A stretch of 29,427 bases of DNA. It comes from a virus. Positions 1 to 13,611 of this stretch are shown one piece after another (within the stretch, counting starts at the first letter, position 1; every line of letters begins with the position of its first letter). The translations under genes and the position numbers were made by a program. Where the stretch lies: the IMG/VR virus record IMGVR_UViG_3300020428_001135, positions 1-29,427 of that record; one strand, written 5' to 3'. Below the pieces are notes generated by a model. The model saw only the letters and a program-made list of their open reading frames with translations, was not told the origin of the DNA and did not search any database.

Positions 1-457
1 GTAGTGTTCCACGTCTAGCACACCATTGTGCAATACGTGTATATTTAGAAAGTCCTATTAGTGTCTCTGCCGCAATAATGCCAATATATGCAACACCGTT
101 CACAGGTTGATGATGATGTGAACACATGCTTTTTATTTCACTTCTTACTACTAGCATACCTTTGTAACCATCATCTACATGGTTAGGAAATGCAGTTGCA
201 TTAGGCATTGGATCATAACGTCCTGACATTATTTCATTAAAATACATTTTAGCAAGTCGCCTACCAGTGTCCATGCTATTAGGATCACTATGCCTGTCAA
301 TTACTAAGCTATCTAAAACTTGTTCAAACTTTAGTGTTGCCTCTTCAATCAGTTGTTCTTTGTCGCCTTCCTGCAAGACATCGGAAATATTGTCACCTGC
401 CCAATAGCGGATGCCAGCATCTTGCAGTCTTGTAATAATTTGTTTGCTTTTACTCAT
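1..457 (-). CDS. folE: GTP cyclohydrolase I, C-terminally truncated by window edge
   Basis: This enzyme converts GTP to 7,8-dihydroneopterin triphosphate, the first step of both folate and 7-deazaguanine (queuosine/preQ0) synthesis. I translated 152 residues from an ATG at 457; the gene runs off the left edge without a stop. Family signatures are clear: the zinc-site segment MCSHHHQPVNG (Cys112, His114, His115), then YIGIIA and the IGLSKYTRIAQ segment (about residues 134-144), followed by ARRG, where the family continues with a QE(R)LT segment beyond the window. The N-terminal region (residues 30-85) matches the helical part of the family. An SD-like CGGAG lies just upstream of the ATG, behind a near-perfect sigma-70 promoter (502-530). 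With the dpdA-like and QueD-like genes of this window, the likely role is supplying precursor for modified DNA bases. A folate role is the alternative. Confidence 0.93.
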   Translation of the reverse strand, partial: MSKSKQIITRLQDAGIRYWAGDNISDVLQEGDKEQLIEEATLKFEQVLDSLVIDRHSDPNSMDTGRRLAKMYFNEIMSGRYDPMPNATAFPNHVDDGYKGMLVVRSEIKSMCSHHHQPVNGVAYIGIIAAETLIGLSKYTRIAQWCARRGTL

Positions 458-474
458 TTTTTATTCTCCGAGTT

Positions 475-492
475 ATAGACGAGGATGTCTAT
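475..492 (-). promoter_or_regulatory. Leader hairpin in the folE mRNA
   Basis: The segment reads ATAGAC-ATCCTC-GTCTAT on the minus strand: a perfect 6-bp stem with a 6-nt loop. It lies between the predicted transcription start (about 495) and the folE ribosome binding site, so it would form the very 5' end of the folE transcript. It could stabilise the mRNA or limit ribosome access. There is no T-run after it, so it is not a terminator. The role is inference; the complementarity is seen. Confidence 0.5.
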
Positions 493-501
493 TATGTTAT
501 T

Positions 502-530
502 ATTATACAATATATTTAGGCGATTGTCAA
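502..530 (-). promoter_or_regulatory. Sigma-70-type promoter for folE
   Basis: On the minus strand the sequence gives TTGACA (525-530), a 17-bp spacer, then TATAAT (502-507). Both hexamers and the spacer length match the bacterial sigma-70 consensus exactly. It sits in the longest gene-free stretch of the window (458-578), about 45 bp before the folE ATG. Transcription would start near 495 and give a leader of about 38 nt holding a hairpin. The rest of 458-578 shows nothing else recognisable. Confidence 0.88.
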
Positions 531-578
531 TCAAAACATTCGCCCAAATTAAATTTTTTGTTTGTATTTAGGTTTTTC

Positions 579-815
579 TTACCCATTCAATACAGTTTTG
601 TCGGAACTTTCAGAAAAATATTTGTCCAACATAGATAGTCTATCGTCTGCCGCCGCTAGTTTGTTTAATTCTTCTATCACTGCTTCTGTAATATCAGAAT
701 GTTCACCTATTCCAGCGGGCATAGTTTGATAGACTTTAATATTGGCCATATGGACCGCTATCTCCCCCTCTGCCTGCTTTCTGGCCGCAATCAATAAAGC
801 TTCACCTGGTTTCAT
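579..815 (-). CDS. Small conserved phage protein, function unknown
   Basis: A 78-residue soluble protein beginning MKPGEALLIAARKQAEGE. It is mostly helical in character, with a central GIGEH segment (about 46-50) and a C-terminal charged helix. I recall similar short proteins starting MKPGEALL in T4-like marine phages, none with a known function to my knowledge. Its ATG at 815 overlaps the TGA of the HIT gene (ATGA), and an SD AAGGAGAG lies eight bases upstream inside that gene, so the two are probably translationally coupled. It ends 120 bases before folE and is the last gene before the folE promoter. Confidence 0.75.
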   Translation of the reverse strand: MKPGEALLIAARKQAEGEIAVHMANIKVYQTMPAGIGEHSDITEAVIEELNKLAAADDRLSMLDKYFSESSDKTVLNG

Positions 816-1168
816 CCACCACTCTCCTTACGTTTTAGGTAATTTCCTTTGTTAGGAATTACGTTTCTGACCCCACCTCTGGGATCCTCGATATCCCCCT
901 TTTTACGGGGAATTAAGTGTACATGAGGATACATCACAGTTTGTCCTGCGGCCTCACCTACATTTTGTCCTATATTAAATCCATCACATATCTTATCTTG
1001 TACCCATTCATATCCCCAGCCGTATGCGGCTTTATAACAATATGCTAAACACTCCCATGTTTCTTCTTTAGGCACAAACAAAATATGTCCGTCTGTGACC
1101 GGAAATCCGTCTTTATAAACTGTATAATGCTTCGTATCTATTACTATGTCAGTCCAAGGTTTATCCAT
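812..1168 (-). CDS. HIT-family nucleotide hydrolase/transferase
   Basis: HIT (histidine triad) proteins hydrolyse or transfer nucleoside monophosphates, for example Ap4A- or AMP-NH2-type substrates. The 118-residue protein has the family pattern: an N-terminal strand pair, a GHILFVPK segment (27-34), a long helix, FNIGQNVGEAAGQTV (64-78), and PHVHLIPRKKGD (81-92). His82 aligns with the nucleophile and His84 with the third His. The first His of the classic HxHxH is replaced by Tyr80, a common variation in phage members. The start is ATG at 1168 behind TAGGA. The substrate cannot be told from sequence. A housekeeping role in removing toxic dinucleotides during replication is one possibility. 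Confidence 0.88.
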   Translation of the reverse strand: MDKPWTDIVIDTKHYTVYKDGFPVTDGHILFVPKEETWECLAYCYKAAYGWGYEWVQDKICDGFNIGQNVGEAAGQTVMYPHVHLIPRKKGDIEDPRGGVRNVIPNKGNYLKRKESGG

Positions 1169-1173
1169 AATAT

Positions 1174-1512
1174 TTAATTTCCTACAAAAAAGTTAACAAT
1201 GCCTGTTGCAAAAATAAAAACTGCTACTCCATTAATAAAAACTAGTGCTCTATCATGCCAAAGCATACCTACTACTCCCCAACCCATTACTCCACCAAGA
1301 TGAAAGAATAAGTTATATGGCTCCATACCTCCAGCACTGGTCAATACCATTCCAATAAGAATAATAAAACTAGAAGCCCACTTAATATACCAACTTAGAT
1401 CGTACTTAGGTGTAATCTTTTTAAACACTCTACTAGAGTTTAACTCCTTAATCTTATCGTCTAAATTAGGAACCCACTTTTTTATTTCTTTTTCTATATC
1501 TTTTTTATTCAT
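1174..1512 (-). CDS. Conserved three-TM membrane protein (DUF6552-like)
   Basis: A 112-residue protein with a charged, soluble N-terminus (about 1-42) followed by three hydrophobic segments (about 45-62, 68-85 and 90-110). The signature YDLSWYIKWASSFIILIGM and a later WHDRALVFINGVAVF segment match a family of small membrane proteins I know from marine phages, catalogued I believe as DUF6552; that assignment is from memory. Function is unknown. The ATG at 1512 lies within the end of the phosphoribosyltransferase gene, with an SD AGGAAC upstream. Membrane proteins of this sort are numerous in this window. Confidence 0.75.
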   Translation of the reverse strand: MNKKDIEKEIKKWVPNLDDKIKELNSSRVFKKITPKYDLSWYIKWASSFIILIGMVLTSAGGMEPYNLFFHLGGVMGWGVVGMLWHDRALVFINGVAVFIFATGIVNFFVGN

Positions 1513-2038
1513 ATGTTCCTACATTTTCCCAAGGGTAAACTAACCAAACATCTTCTTCTGCCTTGTTAACCTCATGACAAGAATAGTGTGTCTTAAATTT
1601 AAACTCACTAGCTAAATTATCTGTTATAACCGCAAATCTTACATTTTCACACCAAACATTACGCCAATGATCATCTTCAGGGTAACAACTGCTTTGCCAG
1701 TCTTCAACAATCCAATTGAATGTTGATCCTGTATCGTTTATATCGTCAACAATTAATATATTCTTTCCTTGTCCGTTACTGTCTGCATTAGGACTTCCAA
1801 ATGCATCTTCTGCCATCCAAGCATTAGATTCGTTTGCATATCCACTGTCACGTAAACTAACTTTTATTGCTTCACAACGTATGCCGGTCATATTAGAAAT
1901 AATTGTTGCAGGAACATTGCCGCCTCTTGTTATTCCTACAATATAATCAGGTGTCCATTGATCCTTATACATTTGATTTACAATACTTGTGCTACAATTT
2001 TCTATGTCTTTCCATGTATAGAAATGCTTTTTAATCAT
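1505..2038 (-). CDS. Phosphoribosyltransferase-family protein
   Basis: Type I phosphoribosyltransferases attach ribose-5-phosphate from PRPP to a base, usually a purine or orotate. The 177-residue protein holds the PRPP-binding loop KNILIVDDINDTGSTF (about 92-107) and the upstream strand DYIVGITRGGNVPA (31-44), typical of the xanthine/hypoxanthine-type fold. I start it at ATG 2038, one base after the TAA of the upstream oxygenase gene (TAATATG), because residue 1 then gives MIKKHFYTWKDIE, which resembles phage homologues. An in-frame ATG at 2059 would add seven residues. Given the nearby deazaguanine genes, purine salvage or handling of a modified base are both possible, but the substrate is not visible. 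Confidence 0.85.
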   Translation of the reverse strand: MIKKHFYTWKDIENCSTSIVNQMYKDQWTPDYIVGITRGGNVPATIISNMTGIRCEAIKVSLRDSGYANESNAWMAEDAFGSPNADSNGQGKNILIVDDINDTGSTFNWIVEDWQSSCYPEDDHWRNVWCENVRFAVITDNLASEFKFKTHYSCHEVNKAEEDVWLVYPWENVGTYE

Positions 2039-2039
2039 A

Positions 2040-2600
2040 TTACCAAACCCAAGATACAAAACTGTATCTTGTCCCTTCTGTTATTAATGTTACTTTGTGT
2101 GAGTACATAAATGTACTTGGAAATATAAGAATATCTCCTGCTCCTAGCTCAACTTTATTGTCGTCTAGCATAATAAAATCGCCGCCTGTAAAGTTATCGT
2201 TTAATAATCCTACTACAGACAGGGTAGGAATACCTTTTCTTTCACCGTCGAACATCTGTTGAACTCGATCGGCATGCATATGCATCTGTGTATTTTCATC
2301 ATACTTATTAAACCTAACATCAGTAAATCCGTCAAACCCTTGAAGTGTAGGTAATGCTATATCTTTTTCTATGTATTGTATTAGACTATCTTTAACAATA
2401 TGATGTAGTTCTTTATAGTGAGGCACTACTTGGTGAGATATAGAAAGTTCAGTATCTGTACTAAATTTCTCTTTTTCACTATGCGAATAAAATGTATGCT
2501 TTTGCCAGTCATCTTGGAAATTCTCAATTATAGTATTGCATATGTTTACAGGAACTTTTTGTTTTTGAACGACTACATAAGACATAAGATCTTTCTTCAT
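2040..2600 (-). CDS. 2-oxoglutarate/Fe(II)-dependent oxygenase
   Basis: These enzymes hydroxylate proteins, small molecules or nucleic acid bases using 2-oxoglutarate, O2 and Fe(II). The 186-residue protein shows the jelly-roll core with the iron facial triad: His109-x-Asp111 in MHMHADRV and distal His168 in YSHKV, then Arg178 in GTRYSFVSW for 2-oxoglutarate. The GDFIMLDD...GDILIFPS segment (140-162) is typical of the prolyl-4-hydroxylase-like phage enzymes. The ATG overlaps the stop of the upstream gene (TAATG). Such genes are common in marine T4-like phages, with unknown substrates. Next to a glycosyltransferase and a DpdA-like enzyme, modification of DNA or of a virion protein is possible but unproven. 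Confidence 0.88.
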   Translation of the reverse strand: MKKDLMSYVVVQKQKVPVNICNTIIENFQDDWQKHTFYSHSEKEKFSTDTELSISHQVVPHYKELHHIVKDSLIQYIEKDIALPTLQGFDGFTDVRFNKYDENTQMHMHADRVQQMFDGERKGIPTLSVVGLLNDNFTGGDFIMLDDNKVELGAGDILIFPSTFMYSHKVTLITEGTRYSFVSWVW

Positions 2601-2965
2601 TATGCATCACCCTCCTTCTTTTTATTAAAGTCTGACTTACACATATCATAGAATAATTTAAAATTTCTCCAAGCCTTATCTAACCCTGGATAATCTTTAG
2701 ACATTTCTTCCACATCATTTTTAAAATTAGTTTCTGTATAGGATGCTTCTCCGGGACTAATATTTACTGTAAACTCTGATCCAGTATCATTTGTTCCATA
2801 TGATAAAGGATCAAATCTTCCATCTCCATAAGATACACCGCTTGTGCCTCCGCCTGTTGATGCTACATCGTATGTAATAGTATCGCCTAAATCTAAATTG
2901 AGTTGATCGATATTAACAGTTACAGTATCTTCCAAGGTTATTTTGTAAGTGGTATCATCTCCCAT
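2600..2965 (-). CDS. Small acidic protein with glycine-rich centre, unknown
   Basis: I do not recognise this 121-residue protein. The first 35 residues are beta-prone and hydrophobic/polar alternating (TYKITLEDTVTVNIDQLNLDL). A GGGTSGVSYGDGRFDPLSYG stretch (about 38-57) looks like a flexible or surface loop. The last 40 residues are helical and charged (NDVEEMSKDYPGLDKAWRNFKLFYD), ending in a lysine-rich tail. It overlaps the glycosyltransferase stop and the oxygenase start by TAATG junctions, so it belongs to that translation unit. The composition would fit a minor virion or accessory protein. Confidence 0.7.
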   Translation of the reverse strand: MGDDTTYKITLEDTVTVNIDQLNLDLGDTITYDVASTGGGTSGVSYGDGRFDPLSYGTNDTGSEFTVNISPGEASYTETNFKNDVEEMSKDYPGLDKAWRNFKLFYDMCKSDFNKKKEGDA

Positions 2966-4014
2966 TAAATAGCCTCATATAACTGCTTACCAGAAAAGAA
3001 ATCTGTGTTAAGTTTTTTTACTTGTTTATCTAATGGTACAAGAAAGTCTTCATAGTGTTCCATGTATTCGGATATCTGATTAACAACTTCTGATCTATGA
3101 ATTTTGTAACTTGCAAAACTTTCTGTCCATTTGCTAGGATATTTAAAATCTGGCAAAGCCATTTCTTCGTAGCTAAGTCTGTCTGGAACCATTGGTATTG
3201 CACCAACAACTGCTCCTTCGTACCAACTAATACCTAGTGTTTCTTGTAAGTTTGCACTAAACACCATCTTAGCTTCTCCTAGCAAGTTATGATATTGATT
3301 CTTATCAAGTTGTTTTTCTTGACAAACAACAAAATCATATTGTGGTAACTGTGTTGCTAAATCACTGAAGATTTCTAGTTGTTTTTCTGGAGCAATTCTA
3401 TGTGGAAAAAGTATTAAATTACGTTTCTGCATTCCTTTATATGGAAGCAATTCTTCACGTAAATACTCCATAGGCCACCCAACTCGAACACTTTTTTCAT
3501 CTAACTCTATTCCTTCTAACATAAGTTCATTACTAAACATATTAATATGAAACTCTGTAGCAAAGAAGTTGTGATTATAGCATTCATACATACTAGCTTC
3601 AGCTTTTCTAACCCAAGGTTTGTTACCAATTAGTCTACCTAAAAAGTCGTGCGGATCATAACTACCAGCATGCCACATGCCACCAATGCTAATGTCAACA
3701 CCCAATAATTCTGCCATATAACGCAATTGAATAACTGTAGGATTCCAGGCATCGGTGTACAAAAAATAATCATCGTCTTTAACCTTGCCATTGCAGAACA
3801 TTTCTCCTATTTGTTCGAGTTGTTTACTCTTATATATGTTCGTTCCGCCAAAGTTAAGAAACGCCCCAGGCGTTGTTGCTTGAGGAGTCTCTCCTCCACT
3901 TATAGTGACGACTTCCTCATTAGTAGACCGTTTAAGTTGCTTAGGAAGATGCTCCTTCCACTGTTTAGTATACCTAGTGTCTACTGCTTCAATGTCTACT
4001 ATATAAATGGTCAT
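2965..4014 (-). CDS. GT-B-fold glycosyltransferase
   Basis: A 349-residue protein with the two-domain layout of GT-B glycosyltransferases. The C-terminal half has RNLILFPHRIAPEKQLEIF (about 197-215), the nucleotide-sugar domain start, then a VFSANLQETLGISWYEGAVVGAIPMVPD-type segment (about 250-277). That segment carries the E-x7-E arrangement of GT4-like retaining enzymes and a GAIPMVPD loop. The N-terminal half has DYFLYTDAWNP and a GGMWHAGSYDPHDFLGRLIG region, familiar from marine T4-like phages. The acceptor is unknown. In phages, enzymes of this kind decorate DNA bases, virion proteins or host surface. Its place between the QueD-like gene and a 2OG oxygenase makes a DNA-modification role worth testing. 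ATG at 4014 overlaps the previous stop (ATGA). Confidence 0.85.
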   Translation of the reverse strand: MTIYIVDIEAVDTRYTKQWKEHLPKQLKRSTNEEVVTISGGETPQATTPGAFLNFGGTNIYKSKQLEQIGEMFCNGKVKDDDYFLYTDAWNPTVIQLRYMAELLGVDISIGGMWHAGSYDPHDFLGRLIGNKPWVRKAEASMYECYNHNFFATEFHINMFSNELMLEGIELDEKSVRVGWPMEYLREELLPYKGMQKRNLILFPHRIAPEKQLEIFSDLATQLPQYDFVVCQEKQLDKNQYHNLLGEAKMVFSANLQETLGISWYEGAVVGAIPMVPDRLSYEEMALPDFKYPSKWTESFASYKIHRSEVVNQISEYMEHYEDFLVPLDKQVKKLNTDFFSGKQLYEAI

Positions 4015-4196
4015 CGTCTTTTATTATTCCTCCATTTTTTTCTAGTTCTAGACCAAGCCATATAACTTTCCCAAGTTCTGTCGCCTTTTTTATAAAGGCT
4101 GGCTTCTTTAAAAACTTTACCTTCGAGTCTACAGTAATCTCGGAATGTGTCGAGATCGTCAAAAATTTTCCTAATAAGGGGATTCTTAATTGCCAT
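4011..4196 (-). CDS. Small basic conserved phage protein, unknown
   Basis: I start this 61-residue protein at ATG 4196, because an SD AAGGAACT sits just upstream and the next gene ends at 4213; an in-frame ATG at 4268 would overlap that gene by 56 bases with no good SD. The sequence begins MAIKNPLIRKIFDDLDTFRDYCRLEG and ends WSRTRKKWRNNKRR. I recall short proteins with the IFDDL..F.D.CR pattern in T4-like marine phages, without a function. The strongly basic tail suggests binding to nucleic acid or protein. It ends with ATGA overlap onto the glycosyltransferase start. Confidence 0.72.
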   Translation of the reverse strand: MAIKNPLIRKIFDDLDTFRDYCRLEGKVFKEASLYKKGDRTWESYMAWSRTRKKWRNNKRR

Positions 4197-4212
4197 GATA
4201 GTTCCTTGTATA

Positions 4213-4701
4213 TCATTGTGTGGGGTAATAAATCGAACAGCCGTTTTCACCGTCTTCAGCAACGTCAATCTCTACAAATCGGCCTGGGTATTTTGCAGAA
4301 ATCTCTTGATATAAGTCATCAGCAATCATTTCGCATGACTTATGATTTAATTCTATTACATCTTCATTGTATAGTTTTTCCATCCATCGTTTAAACTGAA
4401 TAAATTCAATATCACGATCATCATGGAATACTTCTATTCGCACTTTGAAGTGGAATATATGCCGATGTGCAACGCCTAAGAAGCTCACGTCGTCCCAGTC
4501 TCCTGTTGCAAGTTTTGGATCATCTTTAGCCGCTGGATACAAATGTATTCCTTCTTTTCTAAATGTTACCCAAATACTTCGCTTTGCATTTTTCACTGCA
4601 TCTTCCATACCTTTTACCTTCTCCATAAGTTCTTCAAATCGAGCTTCTCTCTTATTGACTAAGTTTATTATATTATCTTTAGATGATTTTGTCAAGTCCA
4701 T
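4213..4701 (-). CDS. QueD/PTPS-like T-fold protein (probable 6-carboxytetrahydropterin synthase relative)
   Basis: QueD converts dihydroneopterin triphosphate, the FolE product, to 6-carboxy-5,6,7,8-tetrahydropterin. The 162-residue protein has a helical N-terminal extension (1-40) followed by a region that aligns in order with QueD: an HRHIFHFKVRIEV strand (His79 and His81 as the HxH zinc pair, perhaps with His53), RDIEFIQFKRWMEKL (96-110), KSCEMIADDL with Glu124 at the substrate-Glu position, and a final VEIDVAEDGENGC strand (143-155). The usual catalytic Cys just before HxH is not there, so activity may differ. It overlaps the upstream 171-residue gene by 23 bases. Assignment rests on motif order; a structure search would be decisive. 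FolE and a DpdA-like enzyme in the same window support it. Confidence 0.6.
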   Translation of the reverse strand: MDLTKSSKDNIINLVNKREARFEELMEKVKGMEDAVKNAKRSIWVTFRKEGIHLYPAAKDDPKLATGDWDDVSFLGVAHRHIFHFKVRIEVFHDDRDIEFIQFKRWMEKLYNEDVIELNHKSCEMIADDLYQEISAKYPGRFVEIDVAEDGENGCSIYYPTQ

Positions 4702-5194
4702 AATCTTTCCATTCTGTAAATTTATCTCTATGCATCAAATCATGTAGACTATGACACCAAACACCAGGATTAGATGCCTTAAAGTCTTTATCGTCAATTT
4801 TTAACATAGTGTTATAGTTCCATTGTTTTATATAAGGAACAGGTACACGCAGTTGCGGAATAAAATTATTATATTCGCAAAGTCCACCCTCTAAAAATTC
4901 TTCTGCGTATTTTATAGGAATATCTAGAGAGCATAACTTACCAGCTGACAAAAATGCTTTAATAAGATTCTCCCATGATTCCCATTCTTTATCATTCTCT
5001 GGATGGAATGAATGATTTGCACCAAAGAATATATGTTCACATTGATTTTCATCATAATGTTTTTGTATTTCGTGAGGTTCGTGTACTCCTGTAACAAATA
5101 GTGTTTTTAATCCATATGCAGGAGTCTTTTCTACTTCATTACCTATGAACATTTTAACATCAGTTTGTGTGCCGTTTTCGTAATCTCTATTCAT
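4679..5194 (-). CDS. Conserved marine-phage protein coupled to the QueD-like gene, unknown
   Basis: A 171-residue soluble protein. Notable segments are NGTQTDVKMFIGNEVEKTPAY (about 7-27), LKTLFVTGVHEPHEI (29-43), EHIFFGANHSFH (53-64) and a C-terminal NPGVWCHSLHDLMHRDKFTEWKDY region (143-166). The strand-helix alternation suggests an alpha/beta fold. I recall homologues in T4-like cyanophages listed as hypothetical. The sequence has no radical-SAM CxxxCxxC motif, so it is not QueE, and no PP-loop, so it is not QueC. Its 3' end overlaps the QueD-like start by 23 bases, which suggests linked expression. The conserved Asp, Cys and His residues near the C-terminus could be functional. Confidence 0.75.
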   Translation of the reverse strand: MNRDYENGTQTDVKMFIGNEVEKTPAYGLKTLFVTGVHEPHEIQKHYDENQCEHIFFGANHSFHPENDKEWESWENLIKAFLSAGKLCSLDIPIKYAEEFLEGGLCEYNNFIPQLRVPVPYIKQWNYNTMLKIDDKDFKASNPGVWCHSLHDLMHRDKFTEWKDYGLDKII

Positions 5195-5400
5195 TTGCTT
5201 ATCATCACTAAAATTGCAGTAAAGAAAAGTGCAAAGAACACAACCGTATAGTCTTTTTTTGGTTCTATTTTACAAGCCTCCTCAAACTCACTGTAATCTA
5301 AAGGCATATAATCTCTATTCCATGCATCTCTTCTTGTATCTTTCTTACGTTGATCGACTTTGATAGATCCTGGGTCTACTTTATAATCTTCCTTTTTCAT
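5191..5400 (-). CDS. Small tail-anchored membrane protein
   Basis: A 69-residue protein with a charged soluble part (1-50, rich in Lys, Asp and Arg) and one hydrophobic C-terminal segment (about 51-68, YTVVFFALFFTAILVMIS). The tail-anchored layout would place the N-terminus in the cytoplasm. No family is recognised. It overlaps both neighbours by ATGA junctions (5397-5400 and 5191-5194), so it is translated with the DoxX-like gene. Confidence 0.72.
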   Translation of the reverse strand: MKKEDYKVDPGSIKVDQRKKDTRRDAWNRDYMPLDYSEFEEACKIEPKKDYTVVFFALFFTAILVMISK

Positions 5401-5795
5401 CTATCATTTCCTTTCATTGCAAAATACAATCCACCAACCCATAGCATAACATGAAAGTTATCATAAAGGATAACATCCATAAAGCTCTCAGGTTGTCCTA
5501 CCCAAATCACTCCAGTCATAATACATCCAATAGTAAATCCACTGAACTTAGTTATTAAATTTCCTACCCAGGGCCATAATCTTTTCCAAAGTGCAGAAAT
5601 TCCTCCAATTAGCAGGCCAAACCCTGCTCCTAGTTCACCTAATATTACAAATACCCAAACTATATAAGGCAATTCGAAACTTTGTGCATCTTCAATTGAG
5701 ATAGGTAGTTTAATAAGTCCTTGTTGAATAAACACTATTGCAAGAGGTACTCTTAGCAACCAACCAGGTAAGTGTTCGTTTATTTTCTGTATCAT
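5397..5795 (-). CDS. DoxX-like four-TM membrane protein
   Basis: A 132-residue integral membrane protein with about four hydrophobic segments (roughly 12-30, 44-65, 82-100 and 105-126). The N-terminal WLLRVPLAIVFIQQGLIKLP and the ELGAGFGLLIGG segment match the DoxX/DoxD-like superfamily, whose bacterial members sit with redox and quinone partners. Phage members have no known job; changing host membrane energetics during infection is a guess. It is embedded in a string of very short genes between dpdA and the QueD-like gene, with ATGA overlaps at both ends. Confidence 0.75.
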   Translation of the reverse strand: MIQKINEHLPGWLLRVPLAIVFIQQGLIKLPISIEDAQSFELPYIVWVFVILGELGAGFGLLIGGISALWKRLWPWVGNLITKFSGFTIGCIMTGVIWVGQPESFMDVILYDNFHVMLWVGGLYFAMKGNDR

Positions 5796-5974
5796 TTTCT
5801 TTTTATATGATCCTTTAGTGCTAACTTTTGTTTCTTTAATTTTACTAGATGTTCTTTAGTTTCCCAACTTCTATCGTAATTTCTTTCTGCTTCTACTTGC
5901 TCTACTTTCTTATGAAAGTAATCAAACATATTTTGCATCTTTTTAGCCTTCTTGGTGGCTCTTCCAGTACTCAT
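5792..5974 (-). CDS. YdcH/DUF465-like small coiled protein
   Basis: A 60-residue, highly charged helical protein. The pattern ...FHKKVEQVEAERNYDRSWETKEHLVKLKKQKLALKDHIKRK matches the DUF465 (YdcH) family, in which a conserved LKkqKLaLKD segment follows a helix. Family members are short and uncharacterised. The start ATG overlaps the dpdA-like stop (TAATG), with AGGAG a few bases upstream. It continues the operon from dpdA into the DoxX-like gene. Confidence 0.72.
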   Translation of the reverse strand: MSTGRATKKAKKMQNMFDYFHKKVEQVEAERNYDRSWETKEHLVKLKKQKLALKDHIKRK

Positions 5975-7434
5975 TATATCTCCTCAAACAAATTATTGAA
6001 CTGCGAACTTGCATTTACAGTTCTCTTTCCAGTAGCACCTCTTGTTCCAATAATCGACATCCAAAACTTTGAAAACTCTTCTATCACAAGATTTGCTTCA
6101 TCTCTGCTACTTGTAGCAAAAATAGCTTCAACGACATCTTTGAAGTATACTCTATCAAATCGTTCGTCTACTAACATAGCAGGAATAGTATTATTGTCGT
6201 ATTTTCTATTTGCTTCTTGTACTGCATTAATGTGCATCCATACATTGTGTCCCATCATTATTGCATAAGAAAAACTATCCCAACTAGTTTTACCTTCTTT
6301 TCCTATTTTATTTAGGTCTCCTGGACCATATATACAAATGTCTTTAGCCATTAATTCTGCAGTAATAGGAGAGTCTAAGAAACTTGTATGTTTTCCTTCT
6401 CTAACAAATGCAGTACCAAACGGCGTAGTATCTGTAGATAAACTTTTGTCATCTATACTAGGAACCATTCTGTATACCCATTTAGATCTATCTTGGGTTT
6501 CTAGTTCGCAATATATTTGTCCATTCGCTGTTGCTAAAAACGGACTAGCACAGTCAAATGTTACAGTAAAGTTTTCGTTATGATACTTACGAACTGCTCT
6601 TTGTATATCAGTAAGTAGTGTAGCCCATTCTAGTTTGCTTGTGCCTAAAAAGTGCATTACATCATGTATACCTTTTTCTAGTAATCCGTCAAATCTTAGT
6701 GCAACTAGTCGTTTCAAAACAAGATGCACATCACACATATTCTGTCCACCCATTGACCATCCATTAAAGTGATCATTAGGATATTTTTTAGGATCACAAT
6801 AGTCTTTCATCTGATTATACCAGTCATCTGCATCAGCATGATTTTCGCCTTGTAAAACATTTAGGAATTTACAAGCACCAGATCTATTTTTCATCCAATA
6901 ATCGTTATTGATACGTGTGGCATTTACTGCATCTTGGTAGTTGTCAATACCAGTAGCTTTTGCACCCTCGGGTGAACGTGAAACCCAAGCCGGAATATCT
7001 AATATCATTCCATAGTCCATGTAAGCATCCATCCATCGTAGAACACCATCACGTTTCTTTTGTGCTTTAGGACAATTAGGATCTTTCCAATCGCCTTCCC
7101 AAACACCTTTACCTATTTGAAATCCACCAGAGTCTCCTAATATCCAACTGTTATTTCTATCTCTGTTCCGAACCATATCTTCTTTAGGAGAATCTTTGTT
7201 AATATCTAGCTCAGCATGACCTGCAGAATACAAAGTCCATTTGTACTGAAATTGACCCTGTGTTGGATTAATGTAATTAAGACCTTCTACACCATTTTTT
7301 AAGTTACTAGGTATTCTTGACGTTTCAACATATTCATCAAAACGTTGTTTTCCAACATATGTAGCATAAAATCCGCTTAAAGCTGGAAGAAATCTAGCAT
7401 AATCTTTTTGTTGTGCAGTTAAGTCTGTAATCAT
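5974..7434 (-). CDS. dpdA: DpdA-like (TGT-superfamily) DNA deazaguanine transglycosylase
   Basis: TGT enzymes exchange guanine for a 7-deazaguanine in tRNA; their DpdA relatives do the same in DNA. In this 486-residue protein the TGT landmarks appear in order and at near-canonical spacing: ILGDSGGFQIG with Asp101-Ser102-Gly-Gly-Phe-Gln106, ILDIP with Asp146, WSMGGQN (227-232) at the GG(L)AVG position, HFLGTSK (261-267), and TFDCASP with Asp294 as the expected nucleophile. The CxCxxC...H zinc site of bacterial TGT is not seen after Asp294. A 150-residue C-terminal region differs from tRNA enzymes, and no PUA domain is obvious. FolE and a QueD-like gene nearby make a DNA role more likely than tRNA queuosine. 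ATG at 7434 overlaps the previous TGA (ATGA). Confidence 0.82.
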   Translation of the reverse strand: MITDLTAQQKDYARFLPALSGFYATYVGKQRFDEYVETSRIPSNLKNGVEGLNYINPTQGQFQYKWTLYSAGHAELDINKDSPKEDMVRNRDRNNSWILGDSGGFQIGKGVWEGDWKDPNCPKAQKKRDGVLRWMDAYMDYGMILDIPAWVSRSPEGAKATGIDNYQDAVNATRINNDYWMKNRSGACKFLNVLQGENHADADDWYNQMKDYCDPKKYPNDHFNGWSMGGQNMCDVHLVLKRLVALRFDGLLEKGIHDVMHFLGTSKLEWATLLTDIQRAVRKYHNENFTVTFDCASPFLATANGQIYCELETQDRSKWVYRMVPSIDDKSLSTDTTPFGTAFVREGKHTSFLDSPITAELMAKDICIYGPGDLNKIGKEGKTSWDSFSYAIMMGHNVWMHINAVQEANRKYDNNTIPAMLVDERFDRVYFKDVVEAIFATSSRDEANLVIEEFSKFWMSIIGTRGATGKRTVNASSQFNNLFEEI

Positions 7435-7691
7435 GAATCAGCTCTCCACCTATACACTTCTGGGATACAAAAATTTCTGCCCCATTTACAAGTATTATCT
7501 TCTTTGCATACACGTTCGTGTTTACTGTTTTCCCAACAATCACCTGTTAGTCCTCGCATCTTTACAAGTTTCGCAAATCCATCATCTATTGATAGCATAA
7601 TAATAGAAGGAAAAATTAAGCCCATGGTTACAATCCAAAAGAATGCCCAACCAAAGCCTTTATTATGATATGGTTGATTTGGATCACTCAT
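7431..7691 (-). CDS. Small membrane protein with cysteine-rich exterior
   Basis: An 86-residue protein with one clear hydrophobic segment (about 13-34, FGWAFFWIVTMGLIFPSIIML) and a C-terminal part holding four cysteines (GDCW, RVCK, NTCK, NFC) between about residues 50 and 76. This layout suggests a single-pass protein with two disulfides outside the cytoplasm. No family recognised. Its start overlaps the sliding clamp stop (TAATG) and its end overlaps dpdA, so it shares the clamp promoter. Confidence 0.7.
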   Translation of the reverse strand: MSDPNQPYHNKGFGWAFFWIVTMGLIFPSIIMLSIDDGFAKLVKMRGLTGDCWENSKHERVCKEDNTCKWGRNFCIPEVYRWRADS

Positions 7692-8419
7692 TATTTGCTC
7701 TGAGCTGGTAGTATATAGTCGTATTTTACCATACCACTGTCTACTGAAATTTGCATAGCACCTTGATCACTCAAACTCATAGTTAAATTACCGTCTAAGT
7801 TAAGTATAGATTGAACTTGTGCTACAGGCCAACTCCAAGTATGTGCGAGTGTGCCTTCTATTCCGTGATGGAAAACAAATTCACCTGCATGTGTACTTTG
7901 ATCACCGAACGCAAAAACAAGATTACCATCTTTTGTACTAACATTAAAGTTAGGCTCTTCTGAATGTGCGGCACTCATTAGTTTCATTCTTGCAATACTT
8001 GCCACACTTGGGGCAAATGTAACTTGCCACTGGGCACCTTTAAATTTTACTGTTTTAAGTTTTTCGTCAATGATTGCTTTGTTCATAAAACGATAATCAT
8101 TTTGGAAATCACCAGCCGCATTTTCAAAATGAATATGTGTAGGAACAGTTTCTCCGTTTCTTTCTGCTTTTACAACTTCTATCTTTGCATCTTTTTGATA
8201 TTCTGGATTCTTTAAATGCAATGCAAGTTTGTCTAAATTTGGCATACCAAAAGTATTTTGAAATTCGCCTACTGCTGACTGTGCTTCAGCAGATAGTATA
8301 ACACTACGGTCTTCAGCCATAGAGTCAATCTGTGTTCCTTCTTCGTTTGTAACTTTTACCAAGCTCAAGAACCCTAAAGCATGAGTGTGTGCTACAATAT
8401 CTTGTAAGATGTCTTTCAT
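7691..8419 (-). CDS. 45: Sliding clamp, T4 gp45-like
   Basis: A 242-residue protein (T4 gp45 is 228) forming the trimeric DNA clamp that gives processivity to the replicative polymerase and, in T4, activates late transcription. It has two similar beta-alpha-beta halves: an N-terminal half with a long helix and an NLDKLALHLKNPEY segment, and a C-terminal half from about 130 (AQWQVTFAPSVASIARM). GNLVFAFGDQSTHAGEFVFHHGIEG and the final GMVKYDYILPA strand match gp45 of marine T4-like phages. The polymerase in this window ends in a clamp-binding tail. It has its own sigma-70 promoter and TAGGAGAA SD. No clamp-loader genes (44, 62) are adjacent. Confidence 0.88.
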   Translation of the reverse strand: MKDILQDIVAHTHALGFLSLVKVTNEEGTQIDSMAEDRSVILSAEAQSAVGEFQNTFGMPNLDKLALHLKNPEYQKDAKIEVVKAERNGETVPTHIHFENAAGDFQNDYRFMNKAIIDEKLKTVKFKGAQWQVTFAPSVASIARMKLMSAAHSEEPNFNVSTKDGNLVFAFGDQSTHAGEFVFHHGIEGTLAHTWSWPVAQVQSILNLDGNLTMSLSDQGAMQISVDSGMVKYDYILPAQSK

Positions 8420-8439: not shown

Positions 8440-8468
8440 ATTATAGTATCTAAGTGGTTGAAAGTCAA
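8440..8468 (-). promoter_or_regulatory. Sigma-70-type promoter for the sliding clamp operon
   Basis: Minus-strand TTGACT (8463-8468), a 17-bp spacer, then TATAAT (8440-8445). Eleven of twelve hexamer bases match consensus. The -35 box overlaps the stop of the dehydrogenase gene. The predicted start near 8433 leaves a leader of about 14 nt with SD TAGGAGAA. It would transcribe the clamp, the dpdA-like gene and the following string of small genes. Confidence 0.85.
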
Positions 8469-9250
8469 GTGTTTTTCCTAACTTTATTGTTATATTCTAC
8501 CGCTGATCTTATGATATTTAGATCGATGCCGGCATTGTCTGCTGATTTTAGGATAGCATTTGCATCCTTTGGAAAGCAATGACCACCAAAGCCTCTTTCT
8601 TCTGTGACCTTAGTATGACTATGTCCTATTCTAGGATCTTCGCCAATTTCTTGAGCTACTTTATCGAAGTCTATATTTAATTTTTTGCACATATCAAATA
8701 TCTGATTAAAGAAACTTACCTTAGTTGCTAAAAATGCATTGCGAAATACCTTTGCAATTATTAATTCTTTAGGTTCGCTTATAATAATGTTCTTGCCACA
8801 GTTATTAAAAACTTCCGTCCAATACGGAATATCGTCTCCGCCAAGAGATATATTTTCACAATCTAATAAATCTTTTGTTGCAGTTTTAGATCTCAAGTAC
8901 TCAGGACTAAAAGTTATGTTATGTTTAGGAAATTTTTGTTTCAGATTAAACCAACCATCAATACTAATAGTGCTTTTTATAAGTACGGGAATGTTTTCTT
9001 TTGTTTGAGACAATACTTCAAAAATGTTTGACATATTACATGCACCATCATAGTCTTCAGGAGTGCTTACACAAACTATTACACTTTCTGAATTATAATC
9101 ACTAATCCTACCTAAAAAAGTTTTCTGTTTGCCTAAAATTCTATAGTATTCTGGATCAACAATTTGTGTCATGTAATCAAAATCGTTAAGTAATTTTTCG
9201 TGAGCTTGACCTACAGACCCATATCCGGCAATTATAATGTATCCAGTCAT
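8465..9250 (-). CDS. UDP-glucose/GDP-mannose dehydrogenase-like protein, short form
   Basis: Family members oxidise a nucleotide sugar to the uronate with two NAD+. This 261-residue protein has the N-terminal Rossmann motif AGYGSVGQAH (Gly9, Gly11, Gly14), the SPEYLR segment (115-120), the central-domain AKVFRNAFLATKVSFFNQ (166-183, with Lys167 and Asn171) and FGGHCFPKD (221-229) with catalytic Cys225 and Lys228. Cellular enzymes have about 430 residues; the C-terminal nucleotide-sugar domain is missing and the N-terminal domain is short. The active-site residues remain, so a reduced but working enzyme is possible. It follows phosphomannomutase and cytidylyltransferase genes in one operon. 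ATG at 9250 overlaps the small gene upstream (ATGA). Confidence 0.85.
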   Translation of the reverse strand: MTGYIIIAGYGSVGQAHEKLLNDFDYMTQIVDPEYYRILGKQKTFLGRISDYNSESVIVCVSTPEDYDGACNMSNIFEVLSQTKENIPVLIKSTISIDGWFNLKQKFPKHNITFSPEYLRSKTATKDLLDCENISLGGDDIPYWTEVFNNCGKNIIISEPKELIIAKVFRNAFLATKVSFFNQIFDMCKKLNIDFDKVAQEIGEDPRIGHSHTKVTEERGFGGHCFPKDANAILKSADNAGIDLNIIRSAVEYNNKVRKNT

Positions 9251-9417
9251 TCAGTATCCTCTATGCAGACGAACCCTACACCTGGTTCTGCCTCTTGTTC
9301 TTCTATGATAGCATTTTTCCAGCATTCGTATGAGCCTGTATAATAATTAATTGATTCTCCAGTTACAGTTCCGTTAGCAAGAATAGTAACCATTACAAGT
9401 ATGTAACCATATATCAT
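9247..9417 (-). CDS. Tiny protein with signal-peptide-like N-terminus
   Basis: A 56-residue open frame I translated in the gap between the dehydrogenase and cytidylyltransferase genes. It begins MIYGYILVMVTILANGTVTG, a hydrophobic stretch resembling a signal peptide or membrane anchor. The rest is acidic (NAIIEEQEAEPGVGFVCIEDTE) with two cysteines (32 and 51) that could pair. It overlaps both neighbours by exactly ATGA (9414-9417 and 9247-9250), which strongly supports it as a real gene. No family recognised; probably exported to the periplasm or membrane. Confidence 0.72.
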   Translation of the reverse strand: MIYGYILVMVTILANGTVTGESINYYTGSYECWKNAIIEEQEAEPGVGFVCIEDTE

Positions 9418-9818
9418 TCGCAAATCCTCTTTCGTAAATCAGTTGTACTAAATCTATGATCTCTTTTGTTAAAATATAATTCAATTCCTAAACGTCTACA
9501 AATATCTTTTCCAGTAAAGTCTTTATCTTTATATTCTTCACCTAATATACGTATATCTATTTGATACATTTCAAGTATGTCTTCTACATCTTTTTCTGTT
9601 GTGTAAGGAATAATTTCGTCAACATATTTTACACCTTTTAATTGGGTATAACGTTCTACAATAGTTTGAATTGGCTTGTTCTTTTCTGGTCTGTCTATGG
9701 TAGGATCTAATTGTAGTCCTGCAACCAAATAATCGCATTTATTTTTTGACTCTCTAAGCATTGCAATGTGGCCTGCATGTAGCAAATCAAATGCACTAAA
9801 GGTTATTCCAACTTTCAA
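9414..9818 (-). CDS. Cytidylyltransferase (glycerol-3-phosphate cytidylyltransferase-like)
   Basis: These enzymes make CDP-activated alcohols or sugars from CTP. The 134-residue protein is the size of TagD and has its motifs: ITFSAFDLLHAGHIAML with HAGH (14-17), RPEKNKPIQTIVERY (43-57, the substrate and dimer segment), and RFSTTDLRKRI (122-132), the RTxGISTT-like signature. The start is TTG at 9818, supported by SD AGGAG seven bases upstream and by overlap with the phosphomannomutase stop. In context it may act on a phosphorylated sugar or polyol in the same pathway as phosphomannomutase and the dehydrogenase. Confidence 0.85.
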   Translation of the reverse strand: MKVGITFSAFDLLHAGHIAMLRESKNKCDYLVAGLQLDPTIDRPEKNKPIQTIVERYTQLKGVKYVDEIIPYTTEKDVEDILEMYQIDIRILGEEYKDKDFTGKDICRRLGIELYFNKRDHRFSTTDLRKRICE

Positions 9819-10941: not shown

Positions 10942-13611
10942 TTACTCTCCAAAGTCAAACAAGCTACTAAATGTGTTTTGTTGTTTAGTATCTTCTAAAT
11001 TATAGTTTAGCACACCAATAAGATTGTCAAGTTTATTGTCAATAATAGTTTCTTCCATAGCATCATTATCAAATGGAAGTTCTTTAAACCAATCTGGTAT
11101 ACGTAATTCATCTGTAGGATATGCAACACTAGTATAACCAAGTGGGTTATTTTTAAGTTTACATACAATAACTTTCATTCCGTCAACTATTTCCTGCGAA
11201 TACTTGTCTCCGTTCATACGTTTTAGTGTATTCCAGTTAATACTTGCTCTAACATGTCCAGGCATATTTGCCTTTCCTTGTTTTTCTTCTAACCTTCTAT
11301 AGTGTCCAACTTTATTAGCACGTTTAGGAGAGCCTTTCTCCCAACCGGGACGTTCTTTAAAGTCTCGCCTAAATTCTGTAATACGTTGTAGTACTTGCTC
11401 CTGTGGAATATCTGTAAGCACCATTAGTAATAGCTCGCTTAAAAACTGTTGCATGAAAACTGGCGTATCAGATCTTCGTAAGTCTAGCCCCATTGCTTTT
11501 ACTTTACCGGGCTTACCGTCTATGTCACTTCTAAAGCCTTCAATATCATATACCAGTGCCGCATAACGTTTTTTAGTAATATAAAGTCCGCTTTCTGCTA
11601 CAATTTCTCTACCTGCGGCAATAACATCTGATCTGCTTTTAGGACAATGAAATGCAGTTAACATAAACTTTTCAAATGTTGTATTTGCTTCTTCTGCAAC
11701 TTGGTCGTATAGGGTAATAACGTTATCTTTTGACCAAGGAATATTACCAGCCTCGATATCTTTTTTAAGTGTAGGATAAGCACTAAAATAAACAGAATCT
11801 GTATCACCATATATAACTGCTTGGCCTACATGATCATATGTTCCTGTTATTACCTTGTTTACCTCAGCACTCATATGCTTAACAATAGTCCTACCAGACA
11901 ATGTTGTTGACTGACCAATACGTTTATCAAAGAATCTACAACCAGGATTAAGTATAGCACCATATAAACTGTTTAAGTTAATCTTTTTAACAAGTTGTCT
12001 TTTGTCCCAATATTCAGTTTCTATTGCATTGCCGGCATCTTTTGCTTTTTTAAGTTGGGCTTGTAACTCTTTACGTTCTGCATACCAACGTGCAAGGATT
12101 CCAGGTATAACACCTTCAAACTCGGTTGTAAAAATAGTGCCATTGGAACTAAGCATCCAAGGCATGTTGCTGTCAAATACCAGCTTGTAGATTTCAGCAC
12201 CACTCATTACTTGACTTTCTTGATTTTCAAAGTCAACTGTAATGGCAATGTCTTTTCTCTTTTCCATGACTGCTTCGTATTCTTCTGAGCCGAACTTTCC
12301 TTCCCATGCTCCTGCAAAAGACTTCTTTTGCAGTACCATTGCATCATGTAGCATTGCTTCTGTATGCTCAGCACGTAGTTGTCCAACAATAGTTTCTGGA
12401 GCCATATTCAATGCACGAATTACACTAGGATACAGACTGTTTAAGTCCATTGACCCAATCCATTTATGCAAACCTTTTTTAGGAAATGCTACATAAGCAC
12501 CTGCGGCCGCAGTATTTTCGTCATCACGTTTTGGTCTGTTAGGAACTTGTAGTCCTCTATGATGAGCTTCGTTGATAATTGCTTGTTCTGTAACTGCTAC
12601 TGCACCCATAGTGGTTTGAAGCAAAACAGTATTTGCATGTGCTAGTTCGTTACTTAGATCAATAAATCTTAGTTTTTTGTCCAGCTTGTCCAGTAATGCG
12701 GTATCTTGTATGTTGTATTCAATGAACTTTCTAAAGTCATTGTTGTACAGTTGATCCAAAGTTCCTTCATACGGAACCTTATTCTCTCCAACTTCGAGCT
12801 CGCCAATTGCATCAAGTCTATAAGTGTGTCTTTCTTCATATGTATATTTACGATATAATTCTAAACTATCTAAATGTACCCTGCCTACTAGGTCATAGGT
12901 TACAGCTGATTTGCCATACTTTTCATATTCACGTTTTTTAGGAAGTTGTTTCCATAAGCAAAATCTTCTTGTGTCATCTTTGCTTAGTACCCTACTAGTT
13001 CTATTTACTGTATAAGGTATATCATAACCTTCACTGTTCCAGCCTGATAATATATCAGCATCTTCGATTAATGTTAAGAAAGTGTCGATCATTTCACCTT
13101 CTTTTTCAAACAACATTACATTTTCAATGCCTTCAAGTTCTTTCTTTGCTTGATCCATTGTAAGTGTTTTAGGAGGAACGGCTAAACATATCATTGTTTC
13201 CATCCACTGTAAGTAAACACTTATACTTGTAATTGGCATAAACGGATCTGCAGGATCAGCAAAGCCTCGTTCTGGATCATAATCTGTCTCAATATCGAAA
13301 AATGCAATGTTTAGTTTAGGTGCATCTTGATTGAGATAATTTTCACTTAGGCATTGGAATATAGGATTTATGTCGCTTTCAAAAAGTTCTTTATTTTTGT
13401 TGATAGCAACTTCTTTACGAAAGTCTTTTGTATTTTTAGAAACAATTCTAGTTAAAGGATCACCATATATACTTTTATGTTTACCTTTTAGCTCTTTGTA
13501 ATAGAATGTATATTTTACGGGATATTCGTGAAATCTTCGCTTGCCGTCTACTCTTTCAACGACCTTAATTATGTCTTGATCGCGATCAAAGACCGCATCT
13601 ACGTAACTCAT
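10942..13611 (-). CDS. 43: Family B DNA polymerase, T4 gp43-like
   Basis: The replicative polymerase with 3'-5' proofreading. In 889 residues (T4 gp43 is 898) I see Exo I FFDIETDYD (Asp106, Glu108), Exo II SGWNSEGYDIPY (Asp197), Exo III YNIQDTALLD (Asp303), Pol A MDLNSLYPSVI (Asp389), Pol B KKINLNSLYGA (552-561) and Pol C YGDTDSVY (601-608, Asp603 and Asp605). The C-terminus SSLFDFGE looks like the clamp-binding tail of T4 gp43, and a gp45-like clamp is encoded downstream. All catalytic carboxylates are present and no intein or split is seen. The ATG is preceded by SD AGGAGAG and a 5-bp/8-nt hairpin that resembles the T4 autoregulatory operator. Confidence 0.97.
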   Translation of the reverse strand: MSYVDAVFDRDQDIIKVVERVDGKRRFHEYPVKYTFYYKELKGKHKSIYGDPLTRIVSKNTKDFRKEVAINKNKELFESDINPIFQCLSENYLNQDAPKLNIAFFDIETDYDPERGFADPADPFMPITSISVYLQWMETMICLAVPPKTLTMDQAKKELEGIENVMLFEKEGEMIDTFLTLIEDADILSGWNSEGYDIPYTVNRTSRVLSKDDTRRFCLWKQLPKKREYEKYGKSAVTYDLVGRVHLDSLELYRKYTYEERHTYRLDAIGELEVGENKVPYEGTLDQLYNNDFRKFIEYNIQDTALLDKLDKKLRFIDLSNELAHANTVLLQTTMGAVAVTEQAIINEAHHRGLQVPNRPKRDDENTAAAGAYVAFPKKGLHKWIGSMDLNSLYPSVIRALNMAPETIVGQLRAEHTEAMLHDAMVLQKKSFAGAWEGKFGSEEYEAVMEKRKDIAITVDFENQESQVMSGAEIYKLVFDSNMPWMLSSNGTIFTTEFEGVIPGILARWYAERKELQAQLKKAKDAGNAIETEYWDKRQLVKKINLNSLYGAILNPGCRFFDKRIGQSTTLSGRTIVKHMSAEVNKVITGTYDHVGQAVIYGDTDSVYFSAYPTLKKDIEAGNIPWSKDNVITLYDQVAEEANTTFEKFMLTAFHCPKSRSDVIAAGREIVAESGLYITKKRYAALVYDIEGFRSDIDGKPGKVKAMGLDLRRSDTPVFMQQFLSELLLMVLTDIPQEQVLQRITEFRRDFKERPGWEKGSPKRANKVGHYRRLEEKQGKANMPGHVRASINWNTLKRMNGDKYSQEIVDGMKVIVCKLKNNPLGYTSVAYPTDELRIPDWFKELPFDNDAMEETIIDNKLDNLIGVLNYNLEDTKQQNTFSSLFDFGE

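Follow-up and report, generated by a model that had tools for sequence, protein, structure and literature searches.

According to Hutinet et al. 2019 (PMC6884629), phage 9g carries dG+ and phages CAjan and Rosebush carry dPreQ0, and their modification systems share phage-encoded FolE, QueE and a DpdA of the tRNA-guanine transglycosylase (TGT) superfamily. For phage PA5oct, a passage of a comparative survey already states "a deazaguanine synthesis/incorporation system" (PMC7824862). Here we analyzed a 29,427-base virus record, IMGVR_UViG_3300020428_001135 (hereafter the window; 35% G+C), which carries a deazaguanine-type gene cluster around a DpdA-like transglycosylase. The window is a fragment of a marine, probably jumbo (giant), phage, and the nearest named relatives of its DNA polymerase are from the jumbo phages Phosso (49.5% identity), Atu_ph07 (45.7%) and Vibrio phage 2.275.O (42.3%). 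A further group of systems was reportedly described by Cui et al. in NAR in 2023, namely phages with dDG and dCDG and a proposed decarboxylase, DpdL, of 7-carboxy-7-deazaguanine (CDG). These phages reportedly resemble what is proposed here for the window in the use of CDG without QueC, with optional decarboxylation and insertion by DpdA; to our knowledge, the glycosyltransferase-like gene (GT) and the conserved gene g171 of the window are not known from them. Cellulophaga phage phiST, which encodes QueD, QueE, FolE and a relative of the window's T-fold protein (f5) in one run, is reportedly among their phages.

The window's cluster shares with 9g, CAjan and Rosebush a FolE, a QueE-like protein and a TGT-superfamily DpdA, and it shares with 9g a clamp-type gene near dpdA. 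In 9g, dpdA adjoins a gene annotated as a replicative clamp, beta type; the word "clamp" does not occur in the main text of PMC6884629. Unlike those systems, the cluster has no QueC or amidotransferase and carries f5 and GT instead, and its DpdA family is matched by neither Pfam nor PHROG. PA5oct has a DpdA of the same family together with GT, f5, QueE and a clamp-type gene close by, whereas the survey passage on it (PMC7824862) mentions no f5, GT or tail.

We consider it rather likely that the window encodes a deazaguanine DNA-modification system that works without QueC and keeps its transglycosylase attached to the replication clamp. The likely genes all lie on the minus strand and, in the direction of transcription, run from the polymerase through the putative clamp, DpdA-like, g171, f5, GT, phosphoribosyltransferase and HIT protein genes to a truncated FolE gene; no tRNA gene was found in the window. 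We compared this order with window-type records, that is, those retrieved with the window's DpdA as query (at least 600 stretches), which are fragments of probable jumbo genomes. In total, 84 records were clustered into open reading frame (ORF) families, to which the family counts out of 84 given below refer. Leaving aside the window itself and L081-L083, every one of the 44 loci that extend over 5 kb beyond DpdA contained both the f5 and the GT family, and in 70 of 71 loci a gene of the clamp-type family ended no more than 1 kb upstream of DpdA. Such conserved synteny argues against a chance assembly, and the deazaguanine-type cluster without QueC is thus real.

Sequence searches of Pfam, PHROG and PDB gave nothing noteworthy for the DpdA-like protein. 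Its AlphaFold2 model (pLDDT 78.1, pTM 0.84) has the TGT (beta/alpha)8 fold, with TGTs making up all 50 best matches listed both by Foldseek (best E 1.5e-6) and by VIA (Z 17.1-18.5, rmsd 4.4-5.7, 286-321 residues). D101 (in DSGGFQ), D146, G230 and D294 (in FDCASP) are conserved in all 30 aligned sequences and Q195 in 29 of them; we take D101, D146, Q195, G230 and D294 to correspond to D102, D156, Q203, G230 and D280 of the Zymomonas mobilis TGT. DNA rather than tRNA is probably the substrate, as suggested by the synteny and by the C-terminal tail described below. When 50,697 phage records were searched by tblastn, 28 matched the window's DpdA at E <= 1, 13 of them strongly: 11 Pseudomonas records (the PA5oct group), Phosso and Vibrio phage 2.275.O. 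Identity to these phage relatives ranged from 27 to 36%, the PA5oct copy standing at 36%, and viral_contigs held no PA5oct DpdA relative. In PA5oct and Phosso, the same phage also encodes FolE, QueD and an annotated QueE. In Vibrio phage 2.275.O, the polymerase is followed by a clamp relative, two ORFs, DpdA, one ORF and then genes annotated as 7-cyano-7-deazaguanine reductase, vitamin uptake transporter and queuosine protein, with GTP cyclohydrolase I further on. By hhalign, there was a profile match to the DpdA-type protein of phage ACP17 (probability 74), which is itself related to the nt-1 protein and, at 29.5%, to that of pf16; pf16 encodes an annotated QueC, ACP17 instead f5 and GT.

The C-terminus of the window's DpdA reads SSQFNNLFEEI, that of its polymerase NTFSSLFDFGE. 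We looked for such tails in 1,594 complete proteins, grouped into 68 ORF families that each had five or more members. A strict F-x-x-L-F motif within the last 14 residues was present in 69 of 71 polymerases and 55 of 83 DpdAs; every protein of the remaining 66 families lacked it, as did all 187 singletons. When both Tyr and Phe were accepted, 67 of the 83 DpdAs fitted the pattern in their last 14 residues, and 81 of 83 had this broader pattern past residue 430; shuffled tails contained it in 1.8 of 83 on average and in 7 of 83 at most. In the last 14 residues of two other families the broader pattern occurred in 2 of 21 and 1 of 17 members, and 33 of the 49 members of a short hydrophobic family (f11) had it somewhere in their last 45 residues. 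A second, mostly separate set of loci, several of them copies of one phage, gave 34 ORFs out of 1,236 with the motif in its strict C-terminal form: 15 DpdAs of three lineages, 15 polymerases or C-terminal pieces of polymerases (one of these assigned from its position alone) and four others. Five more fitting DpdA tails came from contigs of metagenome-assembled genomes (MAGs; L194-L197 and L199). In several phages the DpdA and polymerase tails resemble each other, as in ACP17 (TLDELFE and SLDDLFE), Ps15 (SLDDLFG and SLEDLFG) and Vibrio phage 2.275.O (NNDLFGW and NTDLFDW).

The four other ORFs of the separate set include a GT-like protein of Synechococcus phage BUCT-ZZ01 and VPFG_00169 of Vibrio phage nt-1, together with two further ORFs. 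The BUCT-ZZ01 protein (447 residues, L190:4370-5713) lies directly before DpdA and ends in SLEDFFND, a clamp-type tail resembling that of the DpdA in this phage (SLDSFFD). The nt-1 protein (L186:3495-4175) contains a DUF5591 domain, known from archaeosine synthase, and ends in SLANFF, whereas the nt-1 DpdA has no tail; in nt-1, the clamp tether may sit on a later enzyme.

The polymerase of phage T4, gp43, ends in ASLDFLFG, and this tail binds the sliding clamp gp45; the DpdA of phage 9g ends in RLQDLFDE. In the window, PA5oct and Vibrio phage 2.275.O, the dpdA gene lies at most two ORFs from a clamp-type gene. We call that gene a putative sliding clamp from its position and the names given by two depositors to its relatives ("proliferating cell nuclear antigen" in PAC2, "DNA polymerase III sliding clamp beta" in Phosso). 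A clamp-type relative also follows the polymerase in Atu_ph07, which gave no tblastn match to DpdA. By analogy, the T4 alpha-glucosyltransferase provides a precedent for a clamp-bound DNA-modifying enzyme: it co-purifies with gp45 but glucosylates hydroxymethylcytosine, and the gp45 interaction is reported not to be the main reason for the dominance of alpha-glucosylation (PMC13216743). Among titles and abstracts of the open-licence literature, we found none on a clamp-bound DpdA and no account of what brings a transglycosylase to the guanines of an entire genome as it replicates. If true, a clamp-binding tail on DpdA offers a directly testable mechanism for modifying DNA during copying.

We then considered how the base would be made. 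A preliminary description of this sequence had placed FolE, a QueD-like T-fold protein and a TGT-superfamily protein in the window, with queE and queC possibly beyond position 1, and had proposed that FolE and QueD make the first two intermediates of preQ0 synthesis and that DpdA inserts a deazaguanine into the DNA. All three ORFs are present on the minus strand, the TGT assignment is borne out by fold and catalytic residues, and FolE matches PF01227 (E 3.3e-16) and PHROG 2197, "GTP cyclohydrolase" (2.6e-22). A deazaguanine pathway with a DNA-type transglycosylase stays the best reading. QueE was found where it had been expected: contig L001, which is 100% identical over window positions 1-7704 and continues past position 1, contains a full-length FolE of 229 residues and, directly after folE, a QueE-like radical SAM protein of 298 residues (L001:8150-9046; PHROG 2076, E 1.7e-48). 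Three Cys are invariant in 36 of 36 aligned members of this family, which has 37 members among the 84 records and is present in all seven loci that hold folE plus at least 6 kb beyond it.

The T-fold part of the description also holds, the QueD part probably not. The protein f5 belongs to PHROG 17812 (function unknown) and has no Pfam match, PTPS included. Among PDB entries, its AlphaFold2 model (pLDDT 94.9) is matched best by E. coli QueD (Foldseek 7.3e-5); in VIA, however, QueD/PTPS chains (Z up to 11.7) score close to dihydroneopterin aldolases (up to 10.4), which indicates a T-fold in general rather than QueD in particular. All 39 aligned relatives share H53, H79, H81, H93, D95, E99, S122, E124, E149 and D150, of which H53, H79 and H81 are the likely zinc ligands. 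Reading the equivalence to QueD from motifs rather than structure, Leu75 occupies the position of the catalytic Cys (four before the HxH zinc pair) in 39 of 39 f5 sequences and the Asp-His pair is not invariant (His120 in 20 of 39), whereas phage QueDs have both the Cys and D73-H74 in 13 of 13. By hhalign, just 45 C-terminal columns of f5 aligned with phage QueD (probability 43.6). We therefore rejected f5 as QueD, given the missing Cys and a separate QueD coexisting with it in other phages, and consider that, despite its fold, it is probably another enzyme. It may correspond to DpdL, the decarboxylase reported by Cui et al.

The distribution of f5 also points to a role in deazaguanine metabolism. 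It was found by tblastn in 27 phage records, located in deazaguanine clusters of unrelated phages; viral_contigs held no relative of the phiST f5. In a separate search, 35 f5 loci, several truncated and several copies of one phage, were accompanied by FolE (23), QueE (22), GT (18), DpdA of either type (17) and QueD (14). In a species genome set, f5 occurred at 10 loci, every one in MAGs: five have DpdA together with a phage-type DNA polymerase and a clamp-type gene, four have at least one of FolE, QueE and QueD, and one has a GT-like gene only. At least the first five are probably viral, and the MAGs (L194-L198) probably include viral contigs.

QueC was the other half of the expectation that did not hold, in that no PF06508 match above cut-off was found in 29 window-type records, all of them fragments, and the window gave no match to the QueC-like profile A8. 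Full-length QueC was likewise found in none of 11 tested cultured f5 phages (PA5oct, Phosso, phiST, RHph_I1_18, Bakedbeans, ACP17 (G030), X1, BUCT-ZZ01, D479, Ahp1 and MA9V-3), whereas five of six hand-chosen, not sampled, f5-less phages (nt-1, pf16, Ps15, 9g, G056 and G057) had it, Ps15 giving a partial match. Given this contrast in full-length QueC among the phages tested, f5 probably acts on the product of QueE, and the simplest reading is that it replaces QueC in handling CDG. With f5 probably not QueD and QueC not in the cluster, a preQ0, preQ1 or archaeosine product becomes less likely. QueD itself (PF01242) occurs together with f5 in PA5oct, Phosso and phiST, and was found in 15 of a set of 26 records (25 of them with f5), including all eight of at least 100 kb (ACP17 (G030), G033, G040, G043, G045, G049, RHph_I1_18 and Bakedbeans). 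For the window's phage, it may sit elsewhere in the genome or be supplied by the host.

PP-loop ORFs resembling QueC, with a conserved C-terminal Cys, were seen in 10 of 46 records (L091, L092, L093, L153 and L154 among them), and several are close to series of radical-SAM genes in contigs from marine phages. As possible candidates for completing the pathway they were provisionally set aside: most lie near radical-SAM genes, and none turned up in long records, for example those of G009, G026, PA5oct and Phosso.

In the scheme that we propose, CDG would be made by FolE and QueE together with a QueD that is either a host enzyme or encoded in another part of the phage genome. Where QueC would turn CDG into preQ0, f5 would instead bind and convert it, in the simplest case through zinc-assisted loss of the carboxylate to give 7-deazaguanine. 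The TGT-fold DpdA would exchange guanine in DNA for this product. Its flexible C-terminal peptide would dock on the sliding clamp, as the polymerase tail does, such that base exchange follows the replication fork. Released guanine may be salvaged by the phosphoribosyltransferase, and the product may be decorated by the glycosyltransferase-like protein. The cluster marks a branch with a T-fold enzyme and a GT-like gene where other phages have QueC; from this one would expect deazaguanine bases that do not belong to the preQ0 series, both in marine phages and in cultured jumbo phages (PA5oct and Paride, for example). A wider proposal, that DpdAs of several lineages are clamp clients, that replacement is coupled to replication and that the base here is an undescribed glycosylated 7-deazaguanine made by QueE, f5 and a dedicated GT, is tentative, and we regard it as doubtful.

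Several observations weigh against the clamp-tethered, QueC-less system. The clamp identity of the putative clamp was unsupported by Pfam, PDB profile, HMM and hhalign comparison with T4 gp45, and in Phosso, dpdA lies ~170 kb from the clamp-type gene. The tail is absent from the DpdAs of nt-1, pf16, L116 and L126 and from the last 14 residues of the L198 DpdA; two of the 83 DpdAs fail the broader pattern, one of them that of Phosso, which has no clear tail and only a C-terminal LF. For the pathway, the QueE-like ORF of L001 gave no match in the Pfam search. By profile, no QueD was found in 29 of 31 window-type records, nor in the window, such that CPH4 would have to come from elsewhere or f5 would have to do more than proposed. 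PF06508 matches below threshold occur in four window-type records, and eight have a QueC-like PP-loop ORF outside the cluster. Partial QueC matches above cut-off were also found in the f5-bearing D479 (32.8 bits), G043 and G048; in G043 and G048, f5 occurs together with a QueC-like PP-loop ORF, and X1 has a match below cut-off. Finally, a decarboxylated base offers a glycosyltransferase no obvious attachment point.

Part of the proposal could fail at the tail: the F-x-x-L-F peptide of DpdA may be something other than a clamp ligand, for example a dimerisation or folding element, as its lack in nt-1, pf16 and a few other DpdAs would allow. We consider this possible, though on the unlikely side, in view of the restriction of its strict form, within the last 14 residues, to DpdA and polymerase among the 68 families, its place in a low-confidence region of the DpdA model, its likeness in several phages to the polymerase tail of the same phage and its recurrence in two DpdA lineages and in 9g. 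Alternatively, the pathway may be an ordinary preQ0/archaeosine-type one, in which f5 would be a QueD that has diverged and QueC would lie in a part of the genome that was not sequenced. The QueD-like fold of f5, the lack of another QueD in 29 of 31 window-type records, the eight with a PP-loop ORF and the reductase and queuosine genes beside the DpdA relative of Vibrio phage 2.275.O fit this explanation. Nonetheless, it is unlikely, considering the Leu in place of the catalytic Cys in every f5, the separate QueD that accompanies f5 in long genomes not of the window type, the position of most QueC-like ORFs near radical-SAM genes and the 0 of 29 records with PF06508 above cut-off. That tRNA or some other RNA is the substrate of the TGT-like protein, with FolE serving pterin or folate metabolism, is very improbable: the protein's nearest solved structures, among the matches listed, are indeed tRNA-TGTs, but its gene is syntenic with polymerase and putative clamp genes, its tail is of the clamp type, its cluster includes FolE and a QueE-like gene and its relatives occur in known or predicted DNA-deazaguanine phages.

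The clamp-type tail on DpdA, together with the putative clamp, GT-like and phosphoribosyltransferase genes, adds to what the preliminary description had listed; coordinates are given in the table.

Table. Genes and other features of the analyzed window, by position.
Feature	Position	Strand	Evidence or remark
FolE (GTP cyclohydrolase I), first 152 residues, truncated at contig end	2..457	-	Pfam and PHROG
HIT protein	812-1168	-	PF01230, 7.2e-10
Phosphoribosyltransferase	1505..2059	-	PF00156, E 8.5e-15
GT, glycosyltransferase-like, 349 residues	2965..4014	-	family Pfam matches, depositor names, synteny
f5, T-fold protein (QueD/PTPS fold)	4213..4701	-	structure model, conserved residues
g171, 171 residues, conserved, unknown function	4679..5194	-	family in 76/84 records
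DpdA-like guanine transglycosylase (TGT fold)	5974..7434	-	structure model, catalytic residues
Peptide F-x-x-L-F-E of clamp-binding type, codons of last 14 DpdA residues	5977..6018	-	tail pattern; cf. T4 gp43
Putative sliding clamp, 242 residues	7691..8419	-	depositors' names of relatives and position
UDP-glucose dehydrogenase-like and heptose adenylyltransferase-like genes	8465-9250 and 9414-9818		between polymerase and putative clamp
Family B DNA polymerase, C-terminal F-x-x-L-F-D peptide	10942..13611	-	PF00136, 2.2e-36; PHROG 262, 1.7e-194

Within the GT family, 11 of 26 aligned members match PF00534 (Glycos_transf_1) at E <= 0.1 (best 2.5e-4) and 10 match Rsbr_N about equally (best 4.9e-4); the window's copy has no PF00534 match at 0.1. 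Relatives in Phosso and PAC2 were deposited as glycosyltransferase. GT adjoins f5 in PA5oct, Phosso and ACP17; since f5 phages without a GT nearby exist (phiST and RHph_I1_18), GT looks like an add-on to f5. Should the base be the substrate of GT, a glycosylated deazaguanine would, speculatively, result. The relative of g171 in ACP17 adjoins its DpdA-type gene, and g171 gave no Pfam or PDB sequence match; profiles of f5, GT and g171 found no credible match among PDB sequences.

The phosphoribosyltransferase family is present in 54 of the 84 records, with relatives in phiST and PA5oct, and may recycle guanine freed by the DpdA exchange. Annotated phosphoribosyltransferases also occur in the QueC-bearing Ps15 and in the f5-bearing phiST and BUCT-ZZ01. 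Between polymerase and putative clamp, the UDP-glucose dehydrogenase-like and heptose adenylyltransferase-like genes could possibly contribute to the supply of sugar nucleotides.

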